Origin: Alphaproteobacteria bacterium | GTDB lineage: Bacteria > Pseudomonadota > Alphaproteobacteria > Elsterales > Elsteraceae | DNA: 59,691 bases | Reading direction: 5' to 3' | Assembly (NCBI GenBank): GCA_004292755.1 | Contig: RDXE01000047.1 | Coordinates: 1 to 59,691 of the forward strand | Shown: positions 5,745 to 55,043 of the stretch, one piece after another | How the letters are laid out: each line of letters begins with the position of its first letter | Numbering within the stretch: position 1 is the first letter of the stretch | The notes under the pieces: generated by a model | What the model saw: only the letters and a program-made list of their open reading frames with translations | Databases searched by the model: none | What the model was told of the DNA's origin: nothing | Made by a program: the position numbers and the translations under genes

Positions 5745-6650
5745 ATGGCTTTGTCTCGGCTTTCGGCCACCCTTCGCCTGTTGTGGCGCGAGCGGATCTT
5801 CTATGCCTTCGTCGCCCCATTCGCGGTGATCACCATCCTGTTTGGCATCTGGCCGATCCTATTGTCGATCCAGGTGTCGTTCACAGCCTCTGCGACAGCC
5901 CTGCGCGCCACACCGACATGGGTTGGATTTGCCAATTACTGGACCATCTTTGCGGACCCCTTGTTCACGACGTCGTTATGGCGAACCCTGGTCTATACCG
6001 GCCTCAGTGTGGTCGCAAACCTTGCCTTCGCCCTGGCACTGGCGGTGCTGCTGGACTCAACACTGCTGCGCCGTGGCAACATGGCAATCCGGGTGGCTTT
6101 GTTTCTGCCAGTGGTGACACCAGATGTTGCCGGTTATGTGGTGTGGCGTTGGCTGTTTGATCGATCATTCGGGGCGGTCAATGCTGGCCTTGACATGTTG
6201 GGACTGCCCGCCTTTGGTGGTTTATCGAGTCCGGCCACGGCGACAGCGGCGATTCTGATTGCGGAGCTATGGCATCACTCTGGCTTTTACATGCTGATCT
6301 TTCTGGCAAACCTTGCCATCCGCGACAAGCAATTGGAGGAAGCCGCAGCCATAGACGGGGCGACGCCCTGGCAGATCTGGCGCCTGATCATCCTGCCCCA
6401 GCTGAAGCCAGCCCTGCTGATCAATGCGGTGTACGCCACCATTCAGTTCCTGAAAACCTTCACGGTTGTCGTCGTGATGACCAAGGGTGGACCAAATGAC
6501 CAAACCAATTTCGTCAGCTATTACGCATACCAGTTGTTCGACCAGGGTCGCTACGGTGAGGCCACGGCGATGGCAACCATTCTGTTCTCCATCATCATTG
6601 TATTGTCGTTAAGCATGCTGTGGATCAGTGAGCGGAGTGGCACGAAATGA
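5745..6650 (+). CDS. sugar ABC transporter permease (MalF/UgpA type)
   Basis: About 301 residues with six hydrophobic segments and the EAA loop that docks the ATPase (EEAAAIDGATPWQIWRLI, then LPQLKPAL). The ATG at 5745 gives a normal N-terminus (MALSRLSATLRLLWRERIFYAFVAPF); the frame is open further upstream but there it covers the intercistronic hairpin. Its TGA overlaps the ATG of the second permease. It is an inner-membrane channel subunit. No ATPase gene is present nearby, so a shared ATPase encoded elsewhere must energise the system. Confidence 0.92.
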   Translation: MALSRLSATLRLLWRERIFYAFVAPFAVITILFGIWPILLSIQVSFTASATALRATPTWVGFANYWTIFADPLFTTSLWRTLVYTGLSVVANLAFALALAVLLDSTLLRRGNMAIRVALFLPVVTPDVAGYVVWRWLFDRSFGAVNAGLDMLGLPAFGGLSSPATATAAILIAELWHHSGFYMLIFLANLAIRDKQLEEAAAIDGATPWQIWRLIILPQLKPALLINAVYATIQFLKTFTVVVVMTKGGPNDQTNFVSYYAYQLFDQGRYGEATAMATILFSIIIVLSLSMLWISERSGTK

Positions 6651-7492: not shown

Positions 7493-8649
7493 CCAGTTTG
7501 GCTGCACGCCGCCCATCCGGGCTTGATGACCTTGCTGCCCGGATCGATCAGGCCCGCCACGCCACATTGGCTTGGTTGGACAGGATGGCCTTGGGCGACA
7601 TCGCACGCGGTGTTCATCGCATCTCCGCCCATCACGATCCTCAGGCATGGCCGGGTGTGCTGCTGCCCGGCAGCTATAATGCGATCCTCTGCCGGGATTT
7701 GATCGGCGGGCTGGACGACTGGAGCGACGCAGACAAAGCCGCCACCATCACCTGGCTGGAACAAGCGCGGCTGCCCGATGGACGCTTTCGCATCGCGGGC
7801 ATGACCGATGCCGACGTGTTCAAAAAGCCCGATCCAGTCGAGACATGGCGGTACATTGATTTCCACGTCACCAATTACACGCTGGGTGCGATTGCGGCAC
7901 TTCAGCCCGACCGACCGGCGGTGCTGGCATTCGCTCGGCCCTATCTCGATACGCATCATCTCTTGGCGTGGCTCGGGCTGCGCGACCTGCGCGACCCCTG
8001 GCAGGAGGGCAACAACATCGTGAACCTCGCCAGCTTCCTGTTGTTGATCGAACAGCAGGGCAACGCTGCCGAGCGCGCCTTGGTGCAAGCAGCGTTTGAC
8101 ACGCTGATCGCCTGGCATGATCGCCATCGCGAGCCGACCACTGGCTTCTGGGGCGTTGGCCAGTTGAGCGATGCGACCCAGTTGCTGCACGCCTTCGCTG
8201 GGTCGATGCACAACTTCCACATCTGGTATCAGCGCGATTTACCGCTGCCGGGGCAGGCGGCAGCGGTGGATTATTGCTTGTCGCTACCGCCCAGCATCCA
8301 CAGCGCCTGCATCGATGTGGATGCCGTGGATGTTCTGGTGCATGGCCACCAGATGCTCGATCACCGGCGAGCCGAAATTGAGCACTGGTGCCGTCAGCTG
8401 CTAGGCGCGCTGCTAGACCGTCAACACGCCGATGGCGGGTTCTCAGACGTTCAGCATGGCATCCGCCGCCAGGATGGCTGGGTCCATGGCTATGCCGAAC
8501 CGCAGGGACTATCCAACACCTTCGCCACATGGTTCCGCTGGATCGCGATTGCGATGATCGCGGACCTGCTCTGGCCAAACCGTTGGCCCTGGCGGTTTCG
8601 ACAGATGATCGGCATTGGCTATCGCAAGGCATGGCGTCATGACCGCTGA
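7489..8649 (+). CDS. uncharacterised protein of carbohydrate operon, possibly an alpha/alpha-barrel
   Basis: I do not recognise this 386-residue protein. It has no signal peptide and no obvious membrane segment. It is rich in Trp, His and Asp, with recurring helical segments and patches such as LEQARLPDGRFR, QHADGGFSD and GFWGVGQLSD. These patches resemble the turns of (alpha/alpha) barrels found in unsaturated glycosyl hydrolases and terpene-cyclase-like folds. It is coupled by ATGA to the permease and overlaps the GH2 gene by 11 bp, so it should act with them, probably on the imported glycan in the cytoplasm. The function is inference from context only. Confidence 0.7.
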   Translation: MTSLAARRPSGLDDLAARIDQARHATLAWLDRMALGDIARGVHRISAHHDPQAWPGVLLPGSYNAILCRDLIGGLDDWSDADKAATITWLEQARLPDGRFRIAGMTDADVFKKPDPVETWRYIDFHVTNYTLGAIAALQPDRPAVLAFARPYLDTHHLLAWLGLRDLRDPWQEGNNIVNLASFLLLIEQQGNAAERALVQAAFDTLIAWHDRHREPTTGFWGVGQLSDATQLLHAFAGSMHNFHIWYQRDLPLPGQAAAVDYCLSLPPSIHSACIDVDAVDVLVHGHQMLDHRRAEIEHWCRQLLGALLDRQHADGGFSDVQHGIRRQDGWVHGYAEPQGLSNTFATWFRWIAIAMIADLLWPNRWPWRFRQMIGIGYRKAWRHDR

Positions 8650-35433: not shown

Positions 35434-37118
35434 ACCCGCATTTCCCAGATAGCCGCGCGAATTCATGACGAAGACCGAAGATTATGATATAAGAATCAAT
35501 GTGTTGTAGGTGTTTGGAGCGGCTGGTCATGGAGGTTGTGACGGGTGAACTGGAAACGGGCAATCTGCGGGTCGCTTTCGACCGCCGCCTCAAGCTGGAG
35601 TTCCATGGATCACGGGTCATGTCGGATGCCGGGTTGCTCGCCTTCCGGGAACTGGACGATGCCCTTGGCTTGACCGAGATGGTCGGGCAAGTGCTGGCCG
35701 ACTTGAGGACCGGCAAGAACAATCGCCACACCCTGACGGCGCAATTCCGGCAATCGGTGTTCGGCCGCCTTGCCGGGTACGAGGATGTCAATGACGCCGA
35801 CCGCCTGGGCTATGACCCGGCGATGCGCTGGATCGTCGGCGGCCGGGCAGTGACCAAGGAAGCCGCTTCGACGAGCTAGATGGGGCGCTTTGAGACCGAG
35901 GTGCTGACCGACAAGGCCAACGTCGCCGTTCTGGCCGACCTGTCAGGGACATGGATCGACGCCGTTCATGCCCGCCGCTCGACCAATGTCGTGGTGCTCG
36001 ACATGGACTCAAGCGTCAGCCCAATCAACGGCAAGCAGGAAGGCACCGCTTACAACGGCCACTTCGGCTGCACCTGCTACCATCCGCTGTTCGTCTTCAA
36101 CCAGTTTGGCGATCTGGAACGGACCACGCTGCGGTCCGGCAATGTCCACAGCGCCGATGGCTGGCGCTCGGTGCTGGAACCTGTGGTGGCGCGGTATCGG
36201 GACCGGACCAAGCGGCGGTTCTTCCGGGGTGATGCCGCCTTCGCCCTGCCCGACCTGTACGACTATCTTGAGGCCGAGGGCTACAAGTACACCATCCGCC
36301 TCGAGGCCAACGCTATCCTTTAGGGTCATATCGCCCACCTGCTGAAACACCCCGTCGGCCGTCCGCCTCTGCATGTTCAGCGGTTCCATGCCAGCTTCAG
36401 TTATCAGGCCGGATCGTGGAGCCGGAAGCGGCGCGTGGTCGCCAAGGTGGAGTGGCATCCCGGCGAACTGTATCCCCGTGTCGGGCTTGATCCGCTTCGC
36501 GGCTCAAGCGTCACCAACCTGACCCGGCCCGCGAACCGCATCGTCGCCTTCTACAACCAGCGCGGCACGGCGGAGCAGTGGATCAAAGAAGGCAAGAACG
36601 CGTTGACGTGGACGCGGCTGTCCTGCGGCACGATGAAGGCCAACGCCGTGCGGCTCCAGCTTCACGCCCTGGCCTACAACCTGTGCAACTTCCTGCGCAC
36701 GCTCGCCCTGCCGGAGGAGATGGAAAGCTGGTCGCTGACCACGATCCGCGAGAAGGTGGTGAAGATCGGCGCGAAGGTGATCGCCCACGCGCGCTACGCC
36801 GTCTTCCAGATGGCCGAAGTGGCTGTGCCCCGTCACCTGTTCCGGCGCATCCTCGACATGATCGACGATTTGCGGCGAAGAGAACCAACGCCATGCTGAC
36901 GGCTGGAAGCGGTCGTACGACGCAGGCGACAGGTGAAGTCTGCCCTCATTGTGGCAAAGTTAGCAAGAAACGCACAACTGGGGCGTGTTATCGCGGTCTG
37001 AACGCGATTCTGCTGCGACGGACGTTGTCGTTACGCGCTTCCCGCTTCCAAGAGGACCAAAGCTGGGCTATTCTGCCATCAATCAGGGGGGATGGGCCGC
37101 CTATCTGGGAAATATCGG
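35434..37118 (+). mobile_element. IS1380-family insertion sequence
   Basis: About 1685 bp, the normal IS1380 size. The ends are inverted repeats sharing a perfect 13-bp core: ATTTCCCAGATAG at 35440-35452 and its complement CTATCTGGGAAAT at 37101-37113. A few further matching bases lie on both sides (ACCCGC versus CCGAT outside). TTGA flanks both ends (35430-35433 and 37119-37122), a plausible 4-bp target duplication. It sits just downstream of the TRAP/aldolase operon and at the left edge of a low-GC segment. Its transposase gene is interrupted twice. Confidence 0.88.
35529..36899 (+). pseudogene. IS1380-type transposase interrupted by two amber codons
   Basis: One uninterrupted frame of 457 codons carries the complete family sequence: RLKLEFHGSRVMSDAGLLAF at the start, AASTS, MGRFETEVL, DMDSSVSPINGKQEG, KRRFFRGDAAFALPDLYDYL, FYNQRGTAEQWIKEGKNAL and LQLHALAYNLCNFLRTL near the end. 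It contains in-frame TAG codons at 35877-35879 and 36321-36323. At both places homologues usually have Gln (TS-Q-MGRF and AIL-Q-G), so each looks like a CAG to TAG change. There are no frameshifts. The product is probably non-functional unless amber codons are suppressed. Confidence 0.88.
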
Positions 37119-37212: not shown

Positions 37213-38226
37213 ATGTCAAACGCGTGGAAACTGAGGAAACTGTCGCAGCTTTTGCTTTTGGCACAGTTTCCTTTTGCTTTTTTGGGTACCGCATTCGCCG
37301 CCGACTTGTGTCAGAACAGATATGTGGCAGAGCAGACTTTTGCAACGCGTGAAGTGAGTATGACGCAGCGCTTGAACGATGTAAAGGCCACTGAAAGTCT
37401 TCTGAAGGCGCTGTGGCCGCAACATGGATACAAATTGATCGATTTCTGCCAGGGAAACGGGATTTTTGCAATTGTAGGTTATGTAATTGATTCGATGGAA
37501 TTTGGTATAAAACCATTTTTTTATGAAGATTTAAGCACCCAGTATCTGCAAGACTCCCGAATTATCGACGCACTTACATTTTCGCTTCTTGATCGTAAGA
37601 CTCTTACGTGGAATTATTCTTCAGCTATGACTAAGGCGCCGAGAGCGTCTTCAGTCACCGTTGAGGCATTCAGCGCATATGCAAAATTTATCACCACTCC
37701 TTACATAGATGAAGAACTTAGTATTTCTTGGTCCGAATTGATTGCTCTGATCCAGGCCGCTGTTGATGACGTAGATAGAATGTTAGCGTCAAGTCGTGGA
37801 TCTGAGGATGTGGTGACCCAGCGAATGATTGCACGTACTGTATTAAGGGCTATCCAGATGGTATTTCTTATCGACTATTACAATAGGTCTCCCAAGATTG
37901 TCGATAGCGAAATAGAAAAGTATCGGAATTTTTTAACGAGATTTATTCATGTGATTAATGCATCTATAACCCTACTGGAATCTAGCTCGTATGCAGTTAG
38001 TCGCAATCTATCTAGTTTTATGCTCCTTGTGCGACCATTTGTTTCTTGTAGTCTAGACTATCTGAAAGACTGTACAGAGGAAATTAGTAAAAGCGAGGCA
38101 GTACTCGACGAGCGGTTAGGGAAGTTTCGTGCTCCGAATGACGCGGATCATAACTTTTTTTACCTCCTAAAGACACAAGTTGCTGGATATATTCCCCGAT
38201 CAATCCGCGGTCTCTCTGTGCGATAA
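37213..38226 (+). CDS. unknown low-GC protein with signal peptide
   Basis: 337 residues from an ATG preceded by a strong ribosome-binding site (AGGAGG, 5 nt spacing). The N-terminus looks like a Sec signal (LRKLSQLLLLAQFPFAFLG, then TAFAADLC). The rest is largely helical, with no motif I recognise. The gene is far more AT-rich than its surroundings and begins 91 bp after the IS right end. It was probably acquired with or near the IS. Partner genes are limited to the small frame downstream. Confidence 0.6.
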   Translation: MSNAWKLRKLSQLLLLAQFPFAFLGTAFAADLCQNRYVAEQTFATREVSMTQRLNDVKATESLLKALWPQHGYKLIDFCQGNGIFAIVGYVIDSMEFGIKPFFYEDLSTQYLQDSRIIDALTFSLLDRKTLTWNYSSAMTKAPRASSVTVEAFSAYAKFITTPYIDEELSISWSELIALIQAAVDDVDRMLASSRGSEDVVTQRMIARTVLRAIQMVFLIDYYNRSPKIVDSEIEKYRNFLTRFIHVINASITLLESSSYAVSRNLSSFMLLVRPFVSCSLDYLKDCTEEISKSEAVLDERLGKFRAPNDADHNFFYLLKTQVAGYIPRSIRGLSVR

Positions 38227-43662: not shown

Positions 43663-44955
43663 CTACTGACCAACCATCTGGGTTGGCAGCCAGAGCACGA
43701 TTTCTGGCACCAGCGTGACCAGAATGACCAGCACCACCATCACGATGAAGAACGGCAGGGCGTGCCACGCCAAGGTGAGGATGTTGTGGCCGGTGATTCC
43801 CTGCAGCACGAACAGATTGAAGCCGACCGGCGGGGTGATCTGCGCCATCTCCACCACCAGCACGATGAAGATGCCAAACCAGACGGGGTCGATGCCTGCT
43901 TTTTGGATCAGTGGCAGCAACACAGCGATGGTCAACACCACCATCGAGATGCCGTCGAGGAAGCAGCCCAGCACAACGAACACCAACGCCAGCACGAAGA
44001 TGAGCATGCCGAACGACAGGTTCAGACTGTCGACCCAAGCGGCCAAATCCCGCGGAATACCGGTCAAGCCGATGCCGAGGGACAAGAACGCAGCCCCACC
44101 CAGGATCAACCCGATCATGCAGGTGAGACGCGTTGCGGACAGCAGCGAGTCCCGAAAGGTCAGCCAGGTCAGCGTGCGTTGTAGGGCCGACAAGAGCAAC
44201 GCCCCCAGCGTGCCAAGGGCAGCACTTTCCGTCGCCGTTGCAATGCCGGTGTAGATTGAGCCCAGCACGAGACCGATCAAGCCAACCGTCGGCAGCAAAT
44301 GACGGCTGGCATAGATCTTCTCCCGCAGGCTCGGCACGCTGGCGGCAGTCGGGATGGTGTCGCGATAGCGCAGCGACCATAGCGCGATGTAACCAGAGAA
44401 CATCGCTGCCAACAGCAAGCCCGGAATCACACCGGCAACAAACAGCTTACCAATGGAAACGTCAGCCGCGACGCCGTAGACGATCATAATGATCGATGGC
44501 GGGATCAACAGGCCCAAGGTGCCCGCTCCGGCCAGCGAGCCAACAATCATCCCCTCGGGATAGCCGCGCTGACGCAGCTCTGGGATGGTGATCTTGCCAA
44601 TCGTGGCGCACGTCGCCGCCGAGGAGCCTGAGATCGCCGCAAAGATGGTGCAGCCCACGACATTGGTGTGCAGCAACCGCCCGGGCACAGCGGCAAACCA
44701 GGGGGCCAAGCCAGTGAACAGCGCGGCTGAGAGCTTGGAGCGAAACAAAATCTCGCCCATCCAGATGAACAGCGGCAGTGCCGTCAGACTAAAGCTGGCG
44801 CCACTTTCCCACATCGCGTTGATCATCAGGTTGGTGATCGGGCGATCGGTGAACAGCACCATCGCCAGTGCGCTGACCCCAACCAGCGACAAGCCGATCC
44901 ACACACCACCAGCCAGCAGCACGAACATGCCGAGGAGCAGGAGGAAAATGTCCAT
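43663..44955 (-). CDS. TRAP transporter large permease (DctM family), second system
   Basis: 430 residues, about twelve membrane segments, with DctM landmarks GCTIFAAISGSSAATCATIG, LGLLIPPSIIMIVYGVAADV and a C-terminal ITPPVGFNLFVLQGI. It is the last gene of the leftward TRAP operon that faces the oxoprolinase gene. It probably imports the acid handled by that enzyme. Confidence 0.94.
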   Translation of the reverse strand: MDIFLLLLGMFVLLAGGVWIGLSLVGVSALAMVLFTDRPITNLMINAMWESGASFSLTALPLFIWMGEILFRSKLSAALFTGLAPWFAAVPGRLLHTNVVGCTIFAAISGSSAATCATIGKITIPELRQRGYPEGMIVGSLAGAGTLGLLIPPSIIMIVYGVAADVSIGKLFVAGVIPGLLLAAMFSGYIALWSLRYRDTIPTAASVPSLREKIYASRHLLPTVGLIGLVLGSIYTGIATATESAALGTLGALLLSALQRTLTWLTFRDSLLSATRLTCMIGLILGGAAFLSLGIGLTGIPRDLAAWVDSLNLSFGMLIFVLALVFVVLGCFLDGISMVVLTIAVLLPLIQKAGIDPVWFGIFIVLVVEMAQITPPVGFNLFVLQGITGHNILTLAWHALPFFIVMVVLVILVTLVPEIVLWLPTQMVGQ

Positions 44956-44964
44956 GGTCGCCCC

Positions 44965-45516
44965 CTATTCCACGCGCAAGGGTTCAGCCCCAGCCGAGGG
45001 CTGCTGGGCACGGCCCGCTAGGCTCTCAACCAAGGCCATGAGAAACGAGGTCGCCAGGGCGACAAAGCCCAGTGCGAACACCGCCTGGGGAATCCATAAG
45101 GGTGTGGCGTCAGTCGCTGAGGAAACTTCGTGGAAGTCCCACGACAACCACGCCATGCGCAGCGCGGCATAGGCCAACCAGCAGGCAATTCCGGTGCCCA
45201 CCGCCAGCGCTGCCACGTCCAGAACCCGACGCGGCAGGCCGGACAGGCGCTCCAGCACCAGGGTCACCCGGATATGCTCACCGGCCGTCAAAGTGGCCGC
45301 CAACGCCAAGCTGATGGAGGCCGCCATCAAGTATCCGGCATAGGCATCCAAGCCTCGGACAAAGAACCCAAACACCCCCCCGGCAATGCCCACCAGGATC
45401 ATCCCGAGCAGACCCACCAGACACGCGGCGGCCAAGGCCAACAACCCGCGTTCACAGGTGATACGCAGTGCACTCCCACCCCGCCCGCCATCTGGCGCAG
45501 CTTCCGACTGTGACAT
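44965..45516 (-). CDS. TRAP transporter small permease (DctQ family), second system
   Basis: 183 residues from the ATG at 45516 (MSQSEAAPDGGRGGSALRIT), four hydrophobic helices, and the DctQ-like segment TLTAGEHIRVTLVLERL. It lies between dctP and dctM with short gaps. The frame is open to 45558 but that extension has no features. Confidence 0.88.
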   Translation of the reverse strand: MSQSEAAPDGGRGGSALRITCERGLLALAAACLVGLLGMILVGIAGGVFGFFVRGLDAYAGYLMAASISLALAATLTAGEHIRVTLVLERLSGLPRRVLDVAALAVGTGIACWLAYAALRMAWLSWDFHEVSSATDATPLWIPQAVFALGFVALATSFLMALVESLAGRAQQPSAGAEPLRVE

Positions 45517-45582
45517 GGTCAACTCCCCAGACGCCGGGGGGTGCCGTTGGGCGACCACCCCGGCGGCTGCCTCCCAGTTGCG

Positions 45583-46596
45583 TTAGCTCTTGAATGGTGC
45601 GAGCAAGGCAGCGCCATCGGCACCGGCACGGGCTTCCCAATCCCGCGCCAGTGTTGCCCCGATACGCCGCAGCCCATCCCTCAAGCGCGGCGAGGCTTCC
45701 AGGACCTGCACGCCGTTGCGGCGCAGCTCAGCCGTTGCCGAGGCTGCAGCCTCGCGCGACATCTGCCAGCCCCGGCGTTCAGCTTCGGCTGCAGCGTTCA
45801 ACACGGTTGTCTGTGTCGCCTCTGGCAAGGCCCGGAACGCCCGGTCGTTGACCAGGACCGCGTTCTTTGGCAGCCACGCCTGGATGTCGTAGTACACTTT
45901 GACGTCGGTCTCCCACACTTTGGAGTCCACGCCCGTCACAGCCGAGGTGATCATCGAGTTGACGCGACCAGTCGCAAGCGCCTGGCTCAACTCCGCCGCT
46001 TGGATGGTGGAGATGGTCGCCCCCACCAACTCGCCAAAGCGCGCAGCCGATGGTCCGTAGGAGCGGAAGCGCAAGCCGCGCAAATCTTCCAGCTGGTCGA
46101 TGGTGCGCGCGGCATAGAGGCCCTGGGGCGGCCACGCGACGGAGAACAGCAAGCGCAGGCCCGCGCGCTGCAAGCGCGCCGCGATCATGGGACGCGACGC
46201 CGTCAACAACCGCTCGGCTGCCTCATAGCCAGTGACGATGAACGGCAGGCTGTCGGCGCCGAAAATCGGATCCTCGTTTTCCAGCGCGGGCAGGAACACT
46301 TCGCCAATCTGCACGTCGCCGGTTTGCACGTTGCGGCGGATCTGCGGCAGCGGCAGCAGCGAGCCACCGGGATGCACCACGATCTCCAGGCCACCGCGGG
46401 TGGCGGTCTTCACCTCCTCCACGAAGGTGGTGATGTTGCGGGTGTGGAAATTGCCCGCCGGATAGGGGGTGGGCATCTGCCAGCGCACTGCTTGCTGTGC
46501 CAGGGCAGGCAGACCAGCGCCACCCGCCAAACCCAATCCCGCGACCCCTGTCAGCACTGCCCGGCGGCTCGGCGCCAGCGTCATCCGTTGCGTCAT
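45583..46596 (-). CDS. TRAP transporter substrate-binding protein (DctP family), second system
   Basis: 337 residues from the ATG at 46596, 6 nt after GGAGGGG. The N-terminus is a twin-arginine type signal (SRRAVLTGVAGLGLAGG, then LPALAQ), unlike the Sec signal of the first TRAP binding protein. DctP features include ARTIDQLEDLRGLRFRSYG and the hydrophobic ligand cleft. It heads a three-gene operon divergent from the oxoprolinase. The ligand may be 5-oxoproline or a related cyclic amide acid, inferred from the neighbour. Confidence 0.9.
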   Translation of the reverse strand: MTQRMTLAPSRRAVLTGVAGLGLAGGAGLPALAQQAVRWQMPTPYPAGNFHTRNITTFVEEVKTATRGGLEIVVHPGGSLLPLPQIRRNVQTGDVQIGEVFLPALENEDPIFGADSLPFIVTGYEAAERLLTASRPMIAARLQRAGLRLLFSVAWPPQGLYAARTIDQLEDLRGLRFRSYGPSAARFGELVGATISTIQAAELSQALATGRVNSMITSAVTGVDSKVWETDVKVYYDIQAWLPKNAVLVNDRAFRALPEATQTTVLNAAAEAERRGWQMSREAAASATAELRRNGVQVLEASPRLRDGLRRIGATLARDWEARAGADGAALLAPFKS

Positions 46597-46654
46597 GAAC
46601 CCCTCCATAGGATCCGGCCACCTGGCCGACACGCCGACATCCATTTGCCGTCGT

Positions 46655-46693
46655 GTTGACACTTTATCGACAAAATGTCTTCTTGCTGTCAAC
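46655..46693. promoter_or_regulatory. 39-bp nested symmetric operator between TRAP operon and oxoprolinase
   Basis: Reading outwards from position 46674 the sequence is symmetric: GTTGACA (46655-46661), 7 bp, GACA, 3 bp, TGTC (46676-46679), 7 bp, TGTCAAC (46687-46693). The inner GACAAAATGTC and the outer arms share exactly one centre. This is the shape of a dimer-of-dimers or extended dyad operator and would serve both divergent genes. Confidence 0.7.
46663..46692 (-). promoter_or_regulatory. candidate promoter of the second TRAP operon
   Basis: On the minus strand TTGACA (46692-46687) is followed after 17 or 18 bp by CGATAA or GATAAA (46669-46663). The consensus -35 is part of the outer arm of the symmetric operator, so a bound protein would cover it. 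Transcription would start near 46657, giving a leader of about 60 nt. Confidence 0.5.
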
Positions 46694-46731
46694 GCACTCT
46701 TGCGTTGGATCGAGACCGGGGAGGACAGGCG

Positions 46732-49700
46732 ATGACCGCAGCGACAGATCATGAAGCATCCGCGAGGCAGCAGCAGACGACAGGCCTCGCGCCGTCCAAA
46801 GGCCGCTGGGACTTCTGGATCGATCGTGGAGGCACCTTCACCGACATTGTCGCCCGCGACCCGAAAGGCCGCCTGCACACGGCCAAGCTGCTGTCTGAGA
46901 ATCCGGAGCGGTATCGCGACGCAGCCGTGGCGGGTATCCGCCAGTTCCTCGGTGTTCCGGATGGAACCACAATTGACCCTGCCCTGATTGGCGAGGTGCG
47001 GATGGGCACCACGGTCGCCACCAATGCCCTGCTGGAGCGCAAGGGCGACCAAACCGTGCTGGCGATCACTGAGGGCTTCGCCGATGCGCTGCGCATCGGT
47101 TATCAGGCCCGGCCCGACATTTTTGCGCGCGACATTCGCCTGCCCGACGCGCTCTACACCCACACGATCGAAGTGTCTGAGCGGCTGGATGCTCAAGGCA
47201 GCGTGGTCACGCCGCTCGCCCTGGCACCCTTGGAAGCACAGCTGGCGGCCGCCCATGCAGCGGGTTACCGCGCCGTTGCCATTGCCTTCCTGCACGCTTG
47301 GCAGAACCCCAGCCACGAGCAAGCCGCAGCAGCCGTGGCCCGCCGCCTGGGCTTCACTCAGGTGACCTGTTCCCACGAGGTCGCCTCCACCATGAAGTTT
47401 ATCCCGCGTGCCGACACGGCCGTGGTGGACGCCTATCTGACGCCAGTGCTGCGTCGGTATGTCGATCAAGTGGCCAGCGCGCTGGGCGGTGCGGACCTGC
47501 GGTTCATGGCCTCCTCCGGCGGATTGATGGCGGCTGATCGGTTTCAGGGCCGTCAGGCAATCCTGTCGGGTCCAGCCGGAGGGATCGTCGGTGCCGCCCG
47601 CACGGCCGAGGCAGCAGGCTTCCAGCGCATCGTCACGTTTGACATGGGCGGCACCTCAACCGATGTCGCCTACTATGCGGGCCGCTACGAGCGCGTGCTG
47701 GACACCGAAGTGGCGGGCGTGCGGGTGCGCGCGCCGATGATGCTGATCCACACCGTGGCTGCGGGTGGTGGCTCGATCTGCCGGTTCGATGGCACCCGGC
47801 TGCGCGTTGGGCCGGAGTCGGCAGGAGCCGATCCAGGACCCGCCTCCTACCGGCGTGGTGGACCGCTGACGGTGACCGATTGCAATGTGCTGATCGGCAA
47901 GCTCGACCCCCGCTTCTTCCCCAAGGTGTTCGGCCGCACGGGCGACCAGCCGCTGGATGCCGGTGCCGTACGCGCGCGCTTCGCGGAGGTGTGTGACGAG
48001 ATCGCGCGTGAAACCGGCCGCCGAATGACGCCGGAGGCCGTGGCCCAGGGCTTCCTGCGCATCGCGGTGGAAACCATGGCGAGCGCCATCAAAACCATCT
48101 CCGTCGAGCGTGGTCACGATCTCGCCGACACTGCGCTGCAGTGTTTCGGCGGCGCTGGCGGCCAGCATGCCTGCTTGGTCGCCGATGCGTTGGGGCTGGA
48201 CACAGTGTTTGTGCACCCGTTTGCGGGCGTGCTGTCGGCCTATGGCATGGGGCTGGCCGAGTTGCGCCACATTGCCGATAGCGCCATTGAGGCCCCGCTC
48301 TCCCCCACCCTCACCCCGCGTCTGGCCGATGCGCTGGCGGCCCTGGCAGAGGGCGCACGCCGTGCCCTGGTGGCGCAAGGGGCCGCCGCCGAGCGCATCA
48401 TGGTTGAGCCGCGCGCCCGCTTGCGGGTGGCAGGCTCCGACACTGCCCTCGACATCGCAGCCGATGATCTCGGGCTGCTGGAGACCCGCTTCGCCGATGC
48501 CCACACCGACCGCTTTGGCTTCTACCCAGCCGGTCAGGGCCTGATCGTTGAAGCGATGGTGGTGGAAGCCACGGCCACCGGTGGCGACGTCGACGCGGCG
48601 TTGGAGGAACCACCGACCCGCACCACTGCACTTGCCACCATCGGCGAGGCGCAACTCGCCATTGAGGAGGAGCGGCGGGCCGTTCCCGTCTATGACACCA
48701 CCCACCTGCGCACCGGCGACCGGATCGTTGGCCCAGCCCTCATCATCGAAGCGATCGGCACCATCTCCATCGAACCAGATTGGACCGCCGAGGTGCGCGA
48801 GCGGGGTCGCATCGTCTTGCGTCGCACGGTGCCGCTGCGCACCGGCTCAACCTTGCCCACCGAGGCCGACCCCGTGATGGTGGAGGTGTTCGATCACTTG
48901 TTCATGGCCATCGCCGAACAGATGGGGGCCGTGCTGCAAAACACCGCCTATTCGGTCAATGCCAAGGAACGGTTGGATTTCTCCTGCGCGGTGTTCGATG
49001 CCACCGGCGGTTTGGTGGCCAACGCCCCCCACATGCCGGTGCATCTGGGCTCAATGGGGGAGAGTGTTCGCACGATCATCACCAGCCGCGCCGCGACCTG
49101 CCGTGCGGGTGACGCCTTCATGCTGAACGCCCCCTATGCCGGCGGTACGCACCTGCCAGACATCACCGTGGTTGCGCCGGTCATGGTGGCGGGGGATGAG
49201 CGCCCCGCCTATTGGGTTGCCGCCCGCAGCCACCATGCCGATGTTGGCGGCATCACCCCCGGCTCGATGCCGCCGAACTCCACCCACATTGAGGAAGAGG
49301 GGGTGTTGATCGAAGACTTCCAGCTGCTCGACCGCGGCACACTGCTGGAAGGGGCGGTGCGCCGCCTGTTCGCCTCAGGCCGCTATCCTGCGCGCAATGT
49401 GGAGCAGAACCTGGGCGACCTGCGCGCTCAGCTTGCCGCCTGCACACGCGGTCAGCGCGAACTCCAGGCGCTGTGCCGTCGCTACAGCCGCGCCGTGGTT
49501 GACGCCTACATGGGCCACGTTCAGGCCAATGCCGAAGAGCAGGTGCGCCGCGCCATCGGCACGCTGTCCGATGGTCAGTTTGTGCGGGATCTGGATGATG
49601 GCTCGCGCATCGCCGTCGCGGTGTCGATAGACCATACGACGCGCAGTGCCACCATCGACTTCACTGGCACCTCGCCCCAGCAGCCGAACAACTTCAACGC

Positions 49701-50409
49701 CCCGCTGTCGGTGTGCCGAGCCGCGGTGCTGTACGTGTTCCGCACTCTGGTGACCGACAAGATCCCGATGAATGAGGGGTGCTTGAAGCCTCTGTCGCTG
49801 ATCGTGCCCAAGGGCTCGATGCTCGACCCTGTCGCCCCGGCAGCGGTGGTGGCAGGCAATGTGGAAACCTCGCAATGTGTGGTCGATGCGCTGTACGGCG
49901 CCTTGGGTGTGCTCGCTGCCTCCCAGGGCACGATGAACAACCTGACCTTTGGCGATGCCCGCCGCCAATACTACGAAACCATCTGCGGCGGTGCGGGCGC
50001 TGGGCCGGGCTTCCACGGGGCCTCGGCCGTGCAAACCCACATGACCAACAGCCGCCTGACCGATCCTGAGGTGCTGGAGTGGCGCTTCCCCGTGCGGCTG
50101 GACGCTTTCCGCATCCGCACCGGCTCTGGCGGGCGCGGCCAATGGAGCGGCGGCAATGGCACCACCCGGGTGTTGACCTTCCTGGAGCCGATGACTGTCG
50201 CGCTTTTGTCCAACAACCGCCGCATCGCCCCCTTTGGCCTTGCCGGGGGTGAATCCGGCCAACCCGGTCGCGCCTGGATCGAACGCGCCGACGGCACCCG
50301 CCACCCCCTCGGCGCCACCGACCACAGCGACATGGCGGTCGGCGACCGCCTGATCGTCGAGACCCCCGGCGGCGGCGGCTACGGCACCCCTCTCGCCGCA
50401 GCCGCCTAA
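46732..50409 (+). CDS. 5-oxoprolinase/hydantoinase, fused HyuA-HyuB
   Basis: 1225 residues from the ATG at 46732 (ribosome-binding site GGGGAGGA). The first 700 or so residues are hydantoinase [19 protein letters not shown] (phosphate loop of the actin-like fold), [31 protein letters not shown]. From about residue 713 the protein is hydantoinase B ([20 protein letters not shown], then [27 protein letters not shown]). Fused enzymes of this size hydrolyse 5-oxoproline to glutamate with ATP; separate-subunit relatives act on hydantoins. It is cytoplasmic, divergent from a TRAP operon and next to a symmetric operator. The substrate remains to be shown. Confidence 0.93.
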
Positions 50410-50457: not shown

Positions 50458-51495
50458 TTAAGCCGCCTCAAACAACCTGCCATTCACTGTTCCAAGCCAA
50501 GCGGTGAGCGGGATGTCTTCCTGGCGGAGAAAGCCTTGGGGTGGCAGGCTGCCCGCACGGACCAGTGCTGTTGTCCAGGCGATCGCGGTGCGTTGGCGGC
50601 CCAACAGGGTCCGCGGGCGGAAAGCGCGGACATATTCCTGGCGGGATAGGCGCCCAGCGATCACGCCTTCAGAGGCGATGTGGACGTAGACAATATCCTC
50701 CGTCACCGGGGGTTTGGCGTGGACCAGGATGGCACCGGCCTCGGCCCGACGCTCGCGCATCAACAACTCGTGGAAGAACAAGTTCATCAAGTCCGCATGG
50801 CCAGGGTAGCGGATGGTTTTATAGTCCAGATTCGCCACCCGGCCCAAATAGGTGTCACACATCGTGCCCAGACCCCCGGAGGTGGTGAACGCCTCCAGCT
50901 TGACGCCATCGATGTAAAGGGTCTCCAGCCACTCCATCGGCGAGACCAGTTTGCGGTGACCGTCTTCGATCACCTCGCAATCATTCAAGTACTCGTTGAC
51001 CACACCCTCCGGCGACCAGTTGAAGGCATAGCCCATCCGGCCCGTCGGGTAGCGCGGCAAAGCGCCAACCCGCATCCGGCAAGAGCGGCACTGGTCGAAC
51101 CCCGCGATCTGTGCGGCTGCAACGATGCCCACCAGGCCCGGTGCCAAACCACATTGCGGCGCCATCACGCCGCCTCCCGTCTCCGCCAAAGCCTGGATGG
51201 CGCGGGTGGTCGGCACGTCCTCGGTCAAGTCGAAGTAGTGGCAGCCCTGACGGTGGGCAATGCGCGCTAGGTCCGCATTCAAGTGGTAGGGCAGGCAGGA
51301 CAGGACACCATCGACTGTCGCCAATAGATCAGTCAGCGCCGCGCTGTCGGTCACATCCACCAGAGTGACTGGCATCGACAGCGGCACCGGGGGTGCAGCC
51401 CGATCACAGGCCAGCACCGTAAACCCTGCGTCAGCCAGCAACTCAGCCGCCAACGCCCCAACTTTGCCCAAACCCAACACGGCAACCCGCTGCAT
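50458..51495 (-). CDS. saccharopine dehydrogenase-family oxidoreductase
   Basis: 345 residues with an N-terminal Rossmann motif (VAVLGLGKVGALAAELLADA) and the family's catalytic-domain features (QGCHYFDLTEDV, MAPQCGLAPGLVG, GALPRYPTGRMGYAFNWSPE). The best-fitting role is an amino-acid dehydrogenase or reductase of the lysine 6-dehydrogenase/saccharopine group. It is divergent from an Lrp-type regulator, which often controls a neighbouring amino-acid enzyme. The substrate cannot be fixed here. Confidence 0.82.
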   Translation of the reverse strand: MQRVAVLGLGKVGALAAELLADAGFTVLACDRAAPPVPLSMPVTLVDVTDSAALTDLLATVDGVLSCLPYHLNADLARIAHRQGCHYFDLTEDVPTTRAIQALAETGGGVMAPQCGLAPGLVGIVAAAQIAGFDQCRSCRMRVGALPRYPTGRMGYAFNWSPEGVVNEYLNDCEVIEDGHRKLVSPMEWLETLYIDGVKLEAFTTSGGLGTMCDTYLGRVANLDYKTIRYPGHADLMNLFFHELLMRERRAEAGAILVHAKPPVTEDIVYVHIASEGVIAGRLSRQEYVRAFRPRTLLGRQRTAIAWTTALVRAGSLPPQGFLRQEDIPLTAWLGTVNGRLFEAA

Positions 51496-51618
51496 TGTTT
51501 CCTCCCCTCGTTGACAGGCACAGGATCACGCAGCGGGGCGTCAGTCGGAATGCTGGAATTGGGCGCAAACTGTGCAATCTGGTGGCAATTCGCTGGCGTT
51601 TCTGGCATTTTGACAGAG
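51496..51618. promoter_or_regulatory. divergent promoter region with possible Lrp-type dyad
   Basis: The 123-bp gap between the saccharopine-dehydrogenase-like gene and the Lrp-type regulator contains TTGGGCGCAAACTGTGCAA (51557-51575). Its ends are complementary (TTG..C and G..CAA). It is a weak candidate operator for the regulator; promoters for both genes must lie here. Confidence 0.35.
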
Positions 51619-52071
51619 ATGGATGACTTGGACCGCTCCCTCCTGGCCCTGCTGACCCGCGACGCTCGGCAACCGGCAGCCGCCTTAGCGGCGGCGCTGC
51701 AGGTGTCGCGGGCAACGGTGCAGGCGCGCATCGCCCGGCTGATCGCCTCCGGCGCGATCCGCCGCTTCACCATTGACGCCGGGCCGGATGCGACGCCGGG
51801 CGAGGTCAGCGCTTTCTCGCTGTTGAAGCTGGCGAGTGGCGATCCGCGCCCCAGCTTGACGGCCCTCGGCCGCCTCGCGTGGGTGACCAGCGCACACACC
51901 ATCAACGGCGCCTTCGATCTGGTGGTGGAGGTGCGCTGCCCCTCCCTGCCCGTGCTGGATCAGGCGTTGGATGCCATTCGCGCGCTGCCAGCCGTGCTAG
52001 AAACTCAAACGCATATTCGCCTGGCAGAAGTGCGCACCGCTGGCGGATCAAGGCGCGTGCCCAGCGGCTAA
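51619..52071 (+). CDS. Lrp/AsnC family transcriptional regulator
   Basis: 150 residues from the ATG at 51619 (MDDLDRSLLALLTRDARQPA). The N-terminal HTH (AAALQVSRATVQARIARLIA) and a C-terminal RAM-like ligand-sensing domain match Lrp/AsnC regulators of normal size. The frame is open from 51511, but the HTH position favours the later ATG. Its likely target is the divergent dehydrogenase gene, with an amino acid as effector. Confidence 0.87.
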   Translation: MDDLDRSLLALLTRDARQPAAALAAALQVSRATVQARIARLIASGAIRRFTIDAGPDATPGEVSAFSLLKLASGDPRPSLTALGRLAWVTSAHTINGAFDLVVEVRCPSLPVLDQALDAIRALPAVLETQTHIRLAEVRTAGGSRRVPSG

Positions 52072-52145: not shown

Positions 52146-52682
52146 ATGACCGATCAGACCACTTCCGCCCCGTCTCCGCGCCGCCCGCGCATTGTCTCCT
52201 CCGCGCACTTGGTGTCGGAGCAGTCGGCTGAATTGTCGGAGTTCGAATTCGGCATGATCATGGTGTCCAATGCCTTCAACCGGTGGGTGGTGCGCTGCAT
52301 GGCCGCTGCGGGTGTCCAGGATGTCAGCGCCGTCGACGTGTTGATCTTGCACACCGTCAACCACCGGGATCGGGAGAAGCGACTGTCCGACATCGCCTTC
52401 GTCCTCAACATCGAGGACAGCCATGTGGTGAAATACTCATTGAAGAAGTTGATGCGCCTGGGTCTGGTACAGCAGCGCAAACTGAGCAAGGAAGGCGTCT
52501 ACCGCACCACCGATGCCGGGCAAACCCTGTGCCGCCGCTATCGCGAGGTGCGGGAGAATTGCTTGATCGCCGCGCTGGGCGACACAGACGTCGGCAATGA
52601 TTTGATCGGTGATTTGGCGAGCCACTTGCGCGCCTTGTCGGGGCTGTACGATCAAGCCTCCCGGGCGGCCACCACGCTTTAA
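52146..52682 (+). CDS. MarR-like winged-helix regulator
   Basis: 178 residues from the ATG at 52146. The winged-helix region reads VSAVDVLILHTVNHRDREKR, then SDIAFVLNIEDSHVVKYSLK and KLMRLGLVQQRKLSKEGVY, typical of MarR-type DNA-binding proteins of the PF13463 kind. There is no transporter or enzyme right beside it that is an obvious target. The oxoprolinase/TRAP dyad at 46.7 kb is one possible site, unproven. Its stop codon overlaps the convergent phosphofructokinase stop. Confidence 0.85.
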   Translation: MTDQTTSAPSPRRPRIVSSAHLVSEQSAELSEFEFGMIMVSNAFNRWVVRCMAAAGVQDVSAVDVLILHTVNHRDREKRLSDIAFVLNIEDSHVVKYSLKKLMRLGLVQQRKLSKEGVYRTTDAGQTLCRRYREVRENCLIAALGDTDVGNDLIGDLASHLRALSGLYDQASRAATTL

Positions 52683-53692
52683 CCCGCGGGCAGCCAGACC
52701 CCCGCCGCCCGCGCCATCGCCACCTCAAGGCCTGCGGGCTCCACCGGTCGTGCGGCGGCTGCGATTGCGGCCAGCGGCACCGGCACAGGCCGACCGCCCT
52801 GCCACAGAATGGCGGTGTCGTCGCCCCCGGTCGCCACAGCTGCAATCGCAGCAGTGGCGAAGGCAGCGGCCAGCAAGCGATCTTCGGGCACCGCAGGGCC
52901 ACCGCGTTGCAGGTGCCCCAACACTGTGGCGCGGGCGGTGCGACTGGTCAGCCGCTCCAGCGTCTCCGCCACGGCGACGCCGCGCGCCGCCCCCTCGGCA
53001 ACCACCACCACAGCCGATGGTGCGTGGCTTAGCCGCTGGGCAAGGGCGGACCAGTCCTCGGGGTTTTGCAGCGGCAGTTCGGGTATCAGCACAGCATCGG
53101 CTGCCCCTGCCGTCGCCGCGGCCAGCGCCAAATGACCAACGGTGCGGCCCATGGTCTCCAGCACCAGCAGCCGGTCGTGACTGGCAGCCGTTGTGGCCAA
53201 ACGGGCGACCGCCTCGGCCGCAACCGCAACAGCACTGGCAAAGCCAATCGTGCGCTCCGACCCCGTCACATCATTGTCGATGGTTTTCGGCAAACCGATC
53301 ACCGGCACCGGCGTGCGCAATGCCAGCTTGTGTGCCATGCGCAAGGTGCCATCGCCGCCAATCACGATCACCGCCTCGGCCGCGATCTGGGCCAGGGCGG
53401 CGGCCAGCTGATCCCCACGATCCACCCGCCCGCCTGCCTCTGGCACGGCGAAGGGGTCAAGGTCCGAGGTCGCCCCCAGAAAGGTCCCGCCCTCGGCCAT
53501 GCGCGCCGCTGGCACGTCGGCGGCGGTGAGGCCGCGCACCGCAGGGGGATCGGCCAGCAAACCGCGGAAGCCGCGTTCAATGCCCAGCATCGTCCACCCG
53601 CGCTGGTGGCCTGCCAGAACCAGACTGCGCAGCGCAGCGTTGAGACCCGGACAATCGCCCCCGCTGGTCAGCACGGCCACCCGCTTGCTCAC
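52679..53692 (-). CDS. pfkA: 6-phosphofructokinase
   Basis: 337 residues from a GTG at 53692 (MSKRVAVLTSGGDCPGLNAA); the longer frame to 53758 adds sequence without family features. Motifs are TSGGDCPGLN, GGDGT, and PKTIDND with the catalytic Asp. In E. coli numbering residue 104 is Gly, as in ATP-dependent enzymes, while residue 124 is Lys, as in PPi-dependent ones. This combination is known in some ATP-dependent PFKs. It commits fructose 6-phosphate to glycolysis; the phosphoryl donor should be tested rather than assumed. Confidence 0.92.
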   Translation of the reverse strand: MSKRVAVLTSGGDCPGLNAALRSLVLAGHQRGWTMLGIERGFRGLLADPPAVRGLTAADVPAARMAEGGTFLGATSDLDPFAVPEAGGRVDRGDQLAAALAQIAAEAVIVIGGDGTLRMAHKLALRTPVPVIGLPKTIDNDVTGSERTIGFASAVAVAAEAVARLATTAASHDRLLVLETMGRTVGHLALAAATAGAADAVLIPELPLQNPEDWSALAQRLSHAPSAVVVVAEGAARGVAVAETLERLTSRTARATVLGHLQRGGPAVPEDRLLAAAFATAAIAAVATGGDDTAILWQGGRPVPVPLAAIAAAARPVEPAGLEVAMARAAGVWLPAG

Positions 53693-53840
53693 ATCCGCCC
53701 CCGCCGCCTGTCCACGCCTCAACCATAAGGGTTGTATCATCCGCTGCCTGGGCCACACCTATATCATTTTGTGGAGGCGGCAGTTGCATTGGCGGAACGG
53801 TTCGGCACAGTATTCGGGGCGTTGCCACGGAGACTGGTCG

Positions 53841-55043
53841 ATGGACTTAAAGCGCATTTTCCCGCCAGGAGCCGTGCTGTTTCGCGAGGGAACCATCGGT
53901 GACACCGCCTATATTGTTGAGCGCGGATTCCTCGATGTCACAGTCGTCCGGTTGGGTGAAGTGATTCGCGTTGCTACATTAGGGCCTGGTGAAATTGTCG
54001 GTGAGATGGCTCTGATTGATGATCGACCGCGCTCTGCGACCGTTACGGCGACCAGTGAAACCGAAGTGATGGTGATCCGGCGCGAGCAGATTCAGAACCG
54101 CTTGCGCAATGCCGATGTCATCACTGGTGCCCTCTTGCGCTTGACCCTCAATCGGTTTCGCACCCTCCAGCGGACCATGGCGGGCCATGACCAGACCACA
54201 GATAACGAGAATGACCCGCTTTCGCACAAAGCGTTTGGTCTGGATGACCCCTATGAGCGCGCCCGCGAGCGCTTGATTTTGGAACAAGAGCTGCGTGAAG
54301 CGCTGGAGTCCCGACAGTTCTTCGTCCAGTTCCAGCCGGTGGTGGCCCTGGCCGACCATTCCTTGCGCGGCTTCGAAGCCCTGATCCGCTGGCGCCATCC
54401 GGAACGCGGCCTGATCAGCCCTGGTCGCTTCGTGGCCTTGGCGGAGGAGGCGGGCCTCATCCACGCCATCGATGGCTGGATGGCGCGCTCTGCCCTGGAT
54501 GGCCTGTACCAAATCCATGAAAGCGCCATGGCAGCGGGAAACCCGAAGCCGTGGCTGAGTGTCAACTTGTCGGGCACACGGTTCGTCGATGACACGCTGG
54601 TCTCCACCCTGCGCCAAGTAGTGCAAGACAGCCGCATCGACCCCAACTTTGTGACAGTAGAGATCACTGAAGGCGTGCTGATCGATTCGCCCACCGTGGC
54701 AGAACCGATCCTGCGGGCCCTGAAGGAAACCGGGCTGACCGTGGCGCTGGACGATTTCGGTACCGGTTATTCCTCGCTGTCCTACCTGCAACGCTTTCCG
54801 ATTGATGTGATCAAGATCGATCTAACCTTCATCCGCCGGATGATGGAGAATGAAACCAGCCTGCAGATTGTCCGCGCCATTGTCGGGCTGGCGCAAGCAC
54901 TGCACATCCGTGTGGTGGCAGAAGGCATTGAGACACCCGATCAAGCCGCCATGCTGTTGGGCCTCGGCTGCCCCATGGGCCAGGGATATCTGTTCGGCCA
55001 CCCGCTCGACCTTGCTGACGCCATCGCAATGGCATCGCGGTAG
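53841..55043 (+). CDS. cyclic-nucleotide-binding/EAL-domain c-di-GMP phosphodiesterase
   Basis: 400 residues from the ATG at 53841. Residues 1-120 form a cNMP-binding domain (FREGTIGDTAYIVERGFLDV, and a phosphate-binding cassette GEMALIDDRPRSATV that retains Glu and Arg). From about residue 140 follows an EAL domain with all main catalytic motifs: EALIRW, NLS, EITEGVL, DDFGTGYSSL, VIKID and VAEGIET. It should degrade c-di-GMP under control of a cyclic nucleotide or similar ligand. No GGDEF domain is attached and no membrane segment is present. The frame is open upstream but the ATG follows GGAG. Confidence 0.9.
   Translation: MDLKRIFPPGAVLFREGTIGDTAYIVERGFLDVTVVRLGEVIRVATLGPGEIVGEMALIDDRPRSATVTATSETEVMVIRREQIQNRLRNADVITGALLRLTLNRFRTLQRTMAGHDQTTDNENDPLSHKAFGLDDPYERARERLILEQELREALESRQFFVQFQPVVALADHSLRGFEALIRWRHPERGLISPGRFVALAEEAGLIHAIDGWMARSALDGLYQIHESAMAAGNPKPWLSVNLSGTRFVDDTLVSTLRQVVQDSRIDPNFVTVEITEGVLIDSPTVAEPILRALKETGLTVALDDFGTGYSSLSYLQRFPIDVIKIDLTFIRRMMENETSLQIVRAIVGLAQALHIRVVAEGIETPDQAAMLLGLGCPMGQGYLFGHPLDLADAIAMASR

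Follow-up and report, generated by a model that had tools for sequence, protein, structure and literature searches.

A tandem array of 11-bp units as the putative operator of a MarR-fold regulator beside genes for 5-oxoproline uptake and hydrolysis

According to a 2026 paper (PMC13274462), the regulation of bacterial 5-oxoproline metabolism had previously been unstudied. The system treated there, that of PxpR from Corynebacterium glutamicum, involves a local sensor-regulator of a cluster for 5-oxoproline uptake and 5-oxoprolinase with divergent genes, and it combines a GntR-type protein, a 17-bp inverted repeat, an APC transporter, and the PxpABC enzyme (PMC13274462). The alphaproteobacterial locus analyzed here likewise appears to be under local control; however, it comprises a MarR-fold regulator, a TRAP transporter, an array-like operator, and, across loci, mostly an OPLAH-like enzyme. 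A second point of reference is LdtR of Liberibacter and Sinorhizobium (NF047395), a MarR-type winged-helix regulator that is a distant profile relative of the regulator considered here. LdtR is a broad regulator, whereas the present one looks local, and the published LdtR site, ATATTCCTTGTATTTTAA, is AT-rich and, unlike the array described below, contains neither a TGTCGACA-type core nor an 11-bp period. Finally, the Bordetella pertussis proteins DctP6 and DctP7 (2pfz and 2pfy) resemble the solute-binding protein of the present locus over the whole length of the sequence, and they are reported to bind pyroglutamate (cited in PMC12344293). A search of mostly open-access literature revealed no paper describing the regulator, its operator, or the motif, and the switch formed by regulator and array seems to be undescribed so far.

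The window, namely, the whole stretch of 59,691 nucleotides that was analyzed, contains three TRAP transporter genes on the minus strand: dctM for the large membrane subunit (43663..44955; PF06808), dctQ for the small membrane subunit (44965..45558; PF04290), and dctP for the solute-binding protein (45583..46596). The dctP start at 46596 is divergent from that of a plus-strand gene (46732..50409) encoding a 5-oxoprolinase of the fused hydantoinase A/B type, in which the HydA_N, HydA, and HydB domains (PF05378, PF01968, and PF02538) are found in a single chain, as in OPLAH-like enzymes. The closest solved relatives of the window DctP are 2pfz and 2pfy, matched at full length with E values of 3e-88 and 3e-82, followed by 6wgm at 6e-67 and then by a fall to 1e-17. 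By sequence similarity, this protein belongs to the pyroglutamate-binding DctP subfamily, and its predicted ligand is pyroglutamate. Elsewhere in the window are the C-terminal fragment of a DDE transposase (36435-36899; PF13701), followed by an orphan 337-amino acid ORF that matched no Pfam model (37213-38226), and a gene in which a cyclic-nucleotide-binding domain is joined to an EAL domain (53499-55043; PF00027 and PF00563).

The region between dctP and the oxoprolinase gene contains, at 46655-46693, the sequence GTTGACACTTTATCGACAAAATGTCTTCTTGCTGTCAAC, which an earlier note on this DNA had described as a 39-bp nested dyad. On re-reading, the outer arms (46655-46661 and 46687-46693), the inner arms (46669-46672 and 46676-46679), the shared center at 46674, and the equal gaps of 7 bp all proved exact. 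With up to 3 mismatches allowed, a search of the window and one of the 4.2-Mb genome each returned a single occurrence of the pattern. Nevertheless, symmetry by itself is weak evidence for the function of the site. Nested dyads with an inner arm of at least 4 bp and an outer arm of at least 7 bp number 8 in the window, as compared with a mean of 3.3 expected from first-order random sequences of the approximately 60-kb window, and the site lies outside the best-matching centers of the window when these are ranked by symmetry. The chance of such a dyad in a 134-bp intergenic region of the same composition is about 0.001.

Conservation, in turn, is decisive. In G001, a genome of the same genus, the gene pair recurs and 36 consecutive bases of the site are unchanged, followed by two changed bases and then TGTCAACGCAC, whereas the intergenic remainder outside the site has diverged. 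The distant alphaproteobacterium G048 has the same divergent gene pair with TTGACGTTTTGTCAA in between. Since G001 keeps the dyad and its 11-bp units recur in dozens of orthologous loci, the site is a real, conserved, and functional control element. The earlier note had named conservation upstream of orthologous gene pairs as the test of its proposal; this was checked, and the site survived. That the symmetry arose by chance in a promoter gap rich in A and T would be consistent with the fact that nested dyads of this size arise about 3 times per 60 kb, but this reading is refuted by the conservation in G001 and in the orthologous loci and by the held-out matrix tests given below, and we regard it as extremely improbable.

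The dyad is better described, on the basis of sequence comparison, as a tandem array of 11-bp quasi-palindromic units of the form TTGTCGACAA + A. A simple scan for TTGAC-N5-GTCAA dyads was informative in alphaproteobacteria but failed to pick up most of the other arrays, and this prompted the description in tandem units; across the order, the exact dyad pattern was found in the genus of the window alone, and a flexible unit matrix was needed. In fits of a 3-unit motif with periods of 8 to 26 from random starts, carried out on 37 dctP-regulator intergenic regions of other species, a period of 11 bp scored 30.1 and the runner-up 20.8. The unit matrix was trained on 43 dctP-regulator intergenic regions of other species, with the window sequence left out. 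The 4-unit array of the window, starting at 46653, scored 18.3 with this matrix, as compared with a mean of -28.1 (sd 7.4) for shuffles, and its 4-unit sum ranked first over all window positions.

The four units differ in quality. Unit 1 (46653..46663; GTGTTGACACT) holds the left outer arm and scores +3.9, and unit 2 (46664..46674; TTATCGACAAA), the best of the four, contains the left inner arm and scores +13.7; both are identical in G001. Units 3 and 4 fit the matrix weakly. Unit 3 (46675..46685; ATGTCTTCTTG) contains the right inner arm, has a degenerate right half, and shares 10 of its 11 bases with G001; its score of about 0 is nonetheless about 2 sd over the window mean (-17.1, sd 8.2, for the symmetrized-unit matrix). 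Unit 4 (46686..46696; CTGTCAACGCA) holds the right outer arm and also scores about 0. Two further units, ACGCCGACATC and CATTTGCCGTC, with symmetrized scores of +6.7 and -9.2, may tentatively be added as a weak extension at 46631..46652. Immediately to the right of the array is an inverted repeat, CAACGCA-CTCT-TGCGTTG (46690-46707), most of which is kept in G001 with a changed loop.

The trained unit is nearly its own reverse complement, with a correlation of 0.86 between the matrix and its reverse complement. Since the array consists of an even number of such quasi-palindromic units placed one helical turn apart, the two nested dyads about 46674 follow. The earlier note had seen in the nested symmetry a sign of two cooperatively bound dimers or of two contacts per half-site: the regulatory site itself is real, whereas its symmetry is a by-product of the four units. 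The number of units in other species is 2, 3, or 4, most commonly 3. Divergent dctP/regulator loci, mostly of Burkholderiales, contain rows such as ATGTCAACAAA TTGTTGGCAAA TTGTCATGATG, and the arrays of L215 and L222 have the same GTTGACA/TGTCAA borders as the window but three units. MarR-type operators have inverted TTG...CAA halves, to which the unit TTGTCGACAA is similar. A canonical MarR operator, however, consists of one 16-20-bp inverted repeat or of well-separated ones, whereas the array is made up of 2-4 tandem units of 11 bp. In many dctP-regulator intergenic regions, among them those of L093, L097, L103, L107, and L130, a conserved block, GGTGTTTTCCCT, is found next to the array on its dctP side (about 12 bp); it is possibly the site of another factor or part of the dctP promoter.

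There is a close link between these arrays and a single regulator gene, located in the window at 52146..52682 on the plus strand. Of the other dctP orthologues, some are preceded by related dyads and others are not, and all nine array-positive genomes outside the genus possess an orthologue of this regulator. In three further genomes the regulator is present and the matched dctP is without the dyad; there the array is found beside the regulator or oxoprolinase genes instead. The regulator gene adjoins dctP or the oxoprolinase gene in most genomes, and in G001 it lies directly 3' of the latter. In alphaproteobacterial dctP upstream regions, which were selected via dctP and hence free of regulator-based selection, the array was detected in 9 of 10 regulator-linked cases (z 4.7-9.8) as compared with 0 of 19 others; in the tenth regulator-linked genome, G195, it is the oxoprolinase gene and not dctP that the array precedes. 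Alphaproteobacterial loci picked by the regulator alone also contained arrays in most cases.

When GTDB genomes were scanned with the family alignment, 80 regulator loci were obtained from Alpha-, Beta-, and Gammaproteobacteria, most of which contain dctP, the regulator, and the oxoprolinase gene together. All 77 above-threshold arrays in these loci (1.15 Mb) are situated at most 450 bp upstream of the regulator, dctP, or oxoprolinase gene; as similarity to the regulator was the basis for collecting these loci, such counts are inflated by related species and perhaps include a few duplicates between collections. Among the 67 loci outside the training set (0.9 Mb), 48 had an array at a threshold of 18, and 62 of the 64 arrays detected were just upstream of the same three genes; the remaining two occupied other positions, in each case in a locus of a distant paralogue. 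The arrays are thus placed nearly exclusively beside the regulator and its partner genes. At the loosest threshold, 12 of 110 regulator loci were without a detectable array, some of them probably owing to contig ends. In three others of these, L083, L084, and L091 (about 7921-7980), the half-site has apparently changed: these PxpABC loci contain units in 11-bp phase with another core (ACGTATACGAT and TTGTATTCGAG), which suggests that the recognition sequence may have shifted within the regulator family. L226 encodes a distant regulator paralogue (32% identity) and has two arrays, at 6420 and 10061, of which one precedes the paralogue gene and the other is close to genes for isochorismatase and MOSC-domain proteins; the array code may reach beyond 5-oxoproline. 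In the genome of the window, no array was found in the stretch surrounding a second regulator paralogue (G000:C18:1680-2159, 30% identity) or in the 14 kb around a dctP paralogue (G000:C17:17598-18575, 51%), and none of the scored two-unit pattern matches elsewhere in this genome extends to an array.

This distribution also bears on a reading in which the site is a back-to-back pair of boxes for a response regulator of the OmpR/PhoB type, with 11-bp direct repeats of TGTCA-like half-sites. The left arm on the minus strand, TGTCGATAAAGTGTCA, looks like a Pho box. The units are, however, quasi-palindromic, as judged by the matrix correlation given above, the arrays are almost confined to loci of the MarR-fold regulator, the window contains a single site, and the genome-wide pattern matches include no comparable array. 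The Pho-box reading was set aside as very improbable.

The product of the gene at 52146-52682 (P0003) matches PF13463 (HTH_27) and none of the MarR Pfam models. Its AlphaFold2 model (pLDDT 88) has helices at 28-55, 62-75, 80-86, and 92-104, then a wing, and further helices at 123-144 and 151-177. Among solved structures, AbfR matches the model best (Z 15.1), ahead of other proteins of the MarR, SlyA, and OhrR types, and the fold is common to AbfR (4hbl/5hlg), SlyA (3q5f), and Escherichia coli MarR (5h3r). According to the model, this protein is a member of the MarR fold superfamily, in which a winged helix is flanked by N- and C-terminal dimerization helices. Its identification as LdtR was rejected: it is not matched by NF047395 at the curated NCBIfam cut-off, the best match to that model within the family being one of 69 members at an E value of 6e-4, and the published LdtR site differs.

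The earlier note had pointed to two nearby candidates, one MarR-like and one Lrp-like, as readers of the site. The former, the protein encoded at 52146-52682, is favored as the most likely reader, as the array follows its gene across loci. Two unrelated genes separate it from the oxoprolinase gene in the window (50458-52071), namely, a saccharopine-dehydrogenase-like gene on the minus strand and the Lrp/AsnC-type gene on the plus strand (about 51547-52071). That the Lrp/AsnC-type protein reads the array might be argued from its position in the same cluster, its AsnC-type HTH and ligand domains, and the use of helically phased degenerate sites by Lrp proteins too. Its gene, however, has no homologue in the 80 regulator loci or in the loci checked in other genomes, where the arrays are nonetheless kept, and this candidate is missing from all other loci; we give it almost no weight. 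Because the saccharopine-dehydrogenase-like gene is likewise without a homologue in any other locus, both genes look like local insertions, and after a search of all loci they were rejected as conserved partners.

The enzymes encoded beside the regulator provide information on the substrate. Among 111 regulator loci, 87 contain the fused oxoprolinase, 17 contain PxpABC, 7 contain neither, and none contains both; in G058, for instance, the regulator gene is found beside pxpB, pxpC, and pxpA, the genes of the unrelated 5-oxoprolinase PxpABC. As a non-homologous enzyme of the same activity replaces the fused oxoprolinase, this exchange is strong evidence for 5-oxoproline as the putative regulated substrate. 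As PxpABC takes its place in other loci, the fused hydantoinase-like enzyme encoded next to the regulator is also predicted to be a true 5-oxoprolinase.

We consider it probable that the array is the operator of the regulator encoded at 52146-52682, and that both would form a local 5-oxoproline-responsive switch for uptake and hydrolysis. The proposal of the earlier note that one protein switches TRAP uptake and oxoprolinase together gains support from the conservation and the regulator association and is the most likely reading. The four units would occupy a single face of the DNA in the divergent dctPQM/5-oxoprolinase promoter region, and the regulator, presumably a dimer, would place its recognition helices in successive major grooves and fill adjacent units cooperatively, thereby covering promoter elements of both genes. 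A pathway substrate, most likely 5-oxoproline (pyroglutamate), would then be bound by the regulator and cause its release from DNA, with joint induction of uptake and of hydrolysis to glutamate. The array with its 11-bp period, its conservation and placement, the MarR fold, and the enzyme exchange come directly from the computation, whereas we infer from them that the regulator binds DNA, that it represses and does not activate, and what its ligand and stoichiometry are.

The promoter elements themselves were less clear than the earlier note had assumed when it assigned consensus -35 boxes to both directions: a consensus scan found no promoter-like pair in either direction, and the plus-strand TTGACA lacks a convincing -10. 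By eye, a weak candidate dctP promoter is seen on the minus strand inside the array (46663..46692), with TTGACA at 46692-46687, an 18-bp spacing, and GATAAA at 46668-46663, which agrees with the -10 consensus in 4 of 6 positions. No good -10 element stands out in the window, so that the covering of promoters by the regulator is presumed. The same regulator and array may also serve activation or dual regulation, or the ligand may be another cyclic amide or acid. LdtR, the distant relative, is reported to activate or repress according to site position (PMC5481520), and caprolactamase and acetophenone carboxylase, whose models match the window enzyme far below cut-off, are also members of the oxoprolinase family. 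Nevertheless, DctP is nearest to pyroglutamate binders, two non-homologous 5-oxoprolinases alternate beside the regulator, and the array overlaps promoter-like elements in many species, so that we consider these variants unlikely, and retain repression in response to 5-oxoproline as the preferred reading.

More tentatively, and in our view with less than even prospects, the MarR-fold subfamily may bind 11-bp arrays as a cooperative row, with one recognition helix per helical turn and not one dimer per palindrome. Arrays of 2, 3, or 4 units, odd numbers included, would then tune the switch, and the subfamily would be a general proteobacterial 5-oxoproline sensor controlling two unrelated 5-oxoprolinase types. 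A dimer centered between two units would favor even arrays, whereas one centered on a unit would favor odd ones.

We rate the system as a local catabolic switch composed of a MarR-fold protein and an unusual operator. For a fold that is considered to bind in dimeric form, odd-numbered arrays pose a concrete structural problem. The analysis provides a candidate regulator and operator for the 5-oxoproline pathway in many Alpha-, Beta-, and Gammaproteobacteria, together with a testable recognition code.
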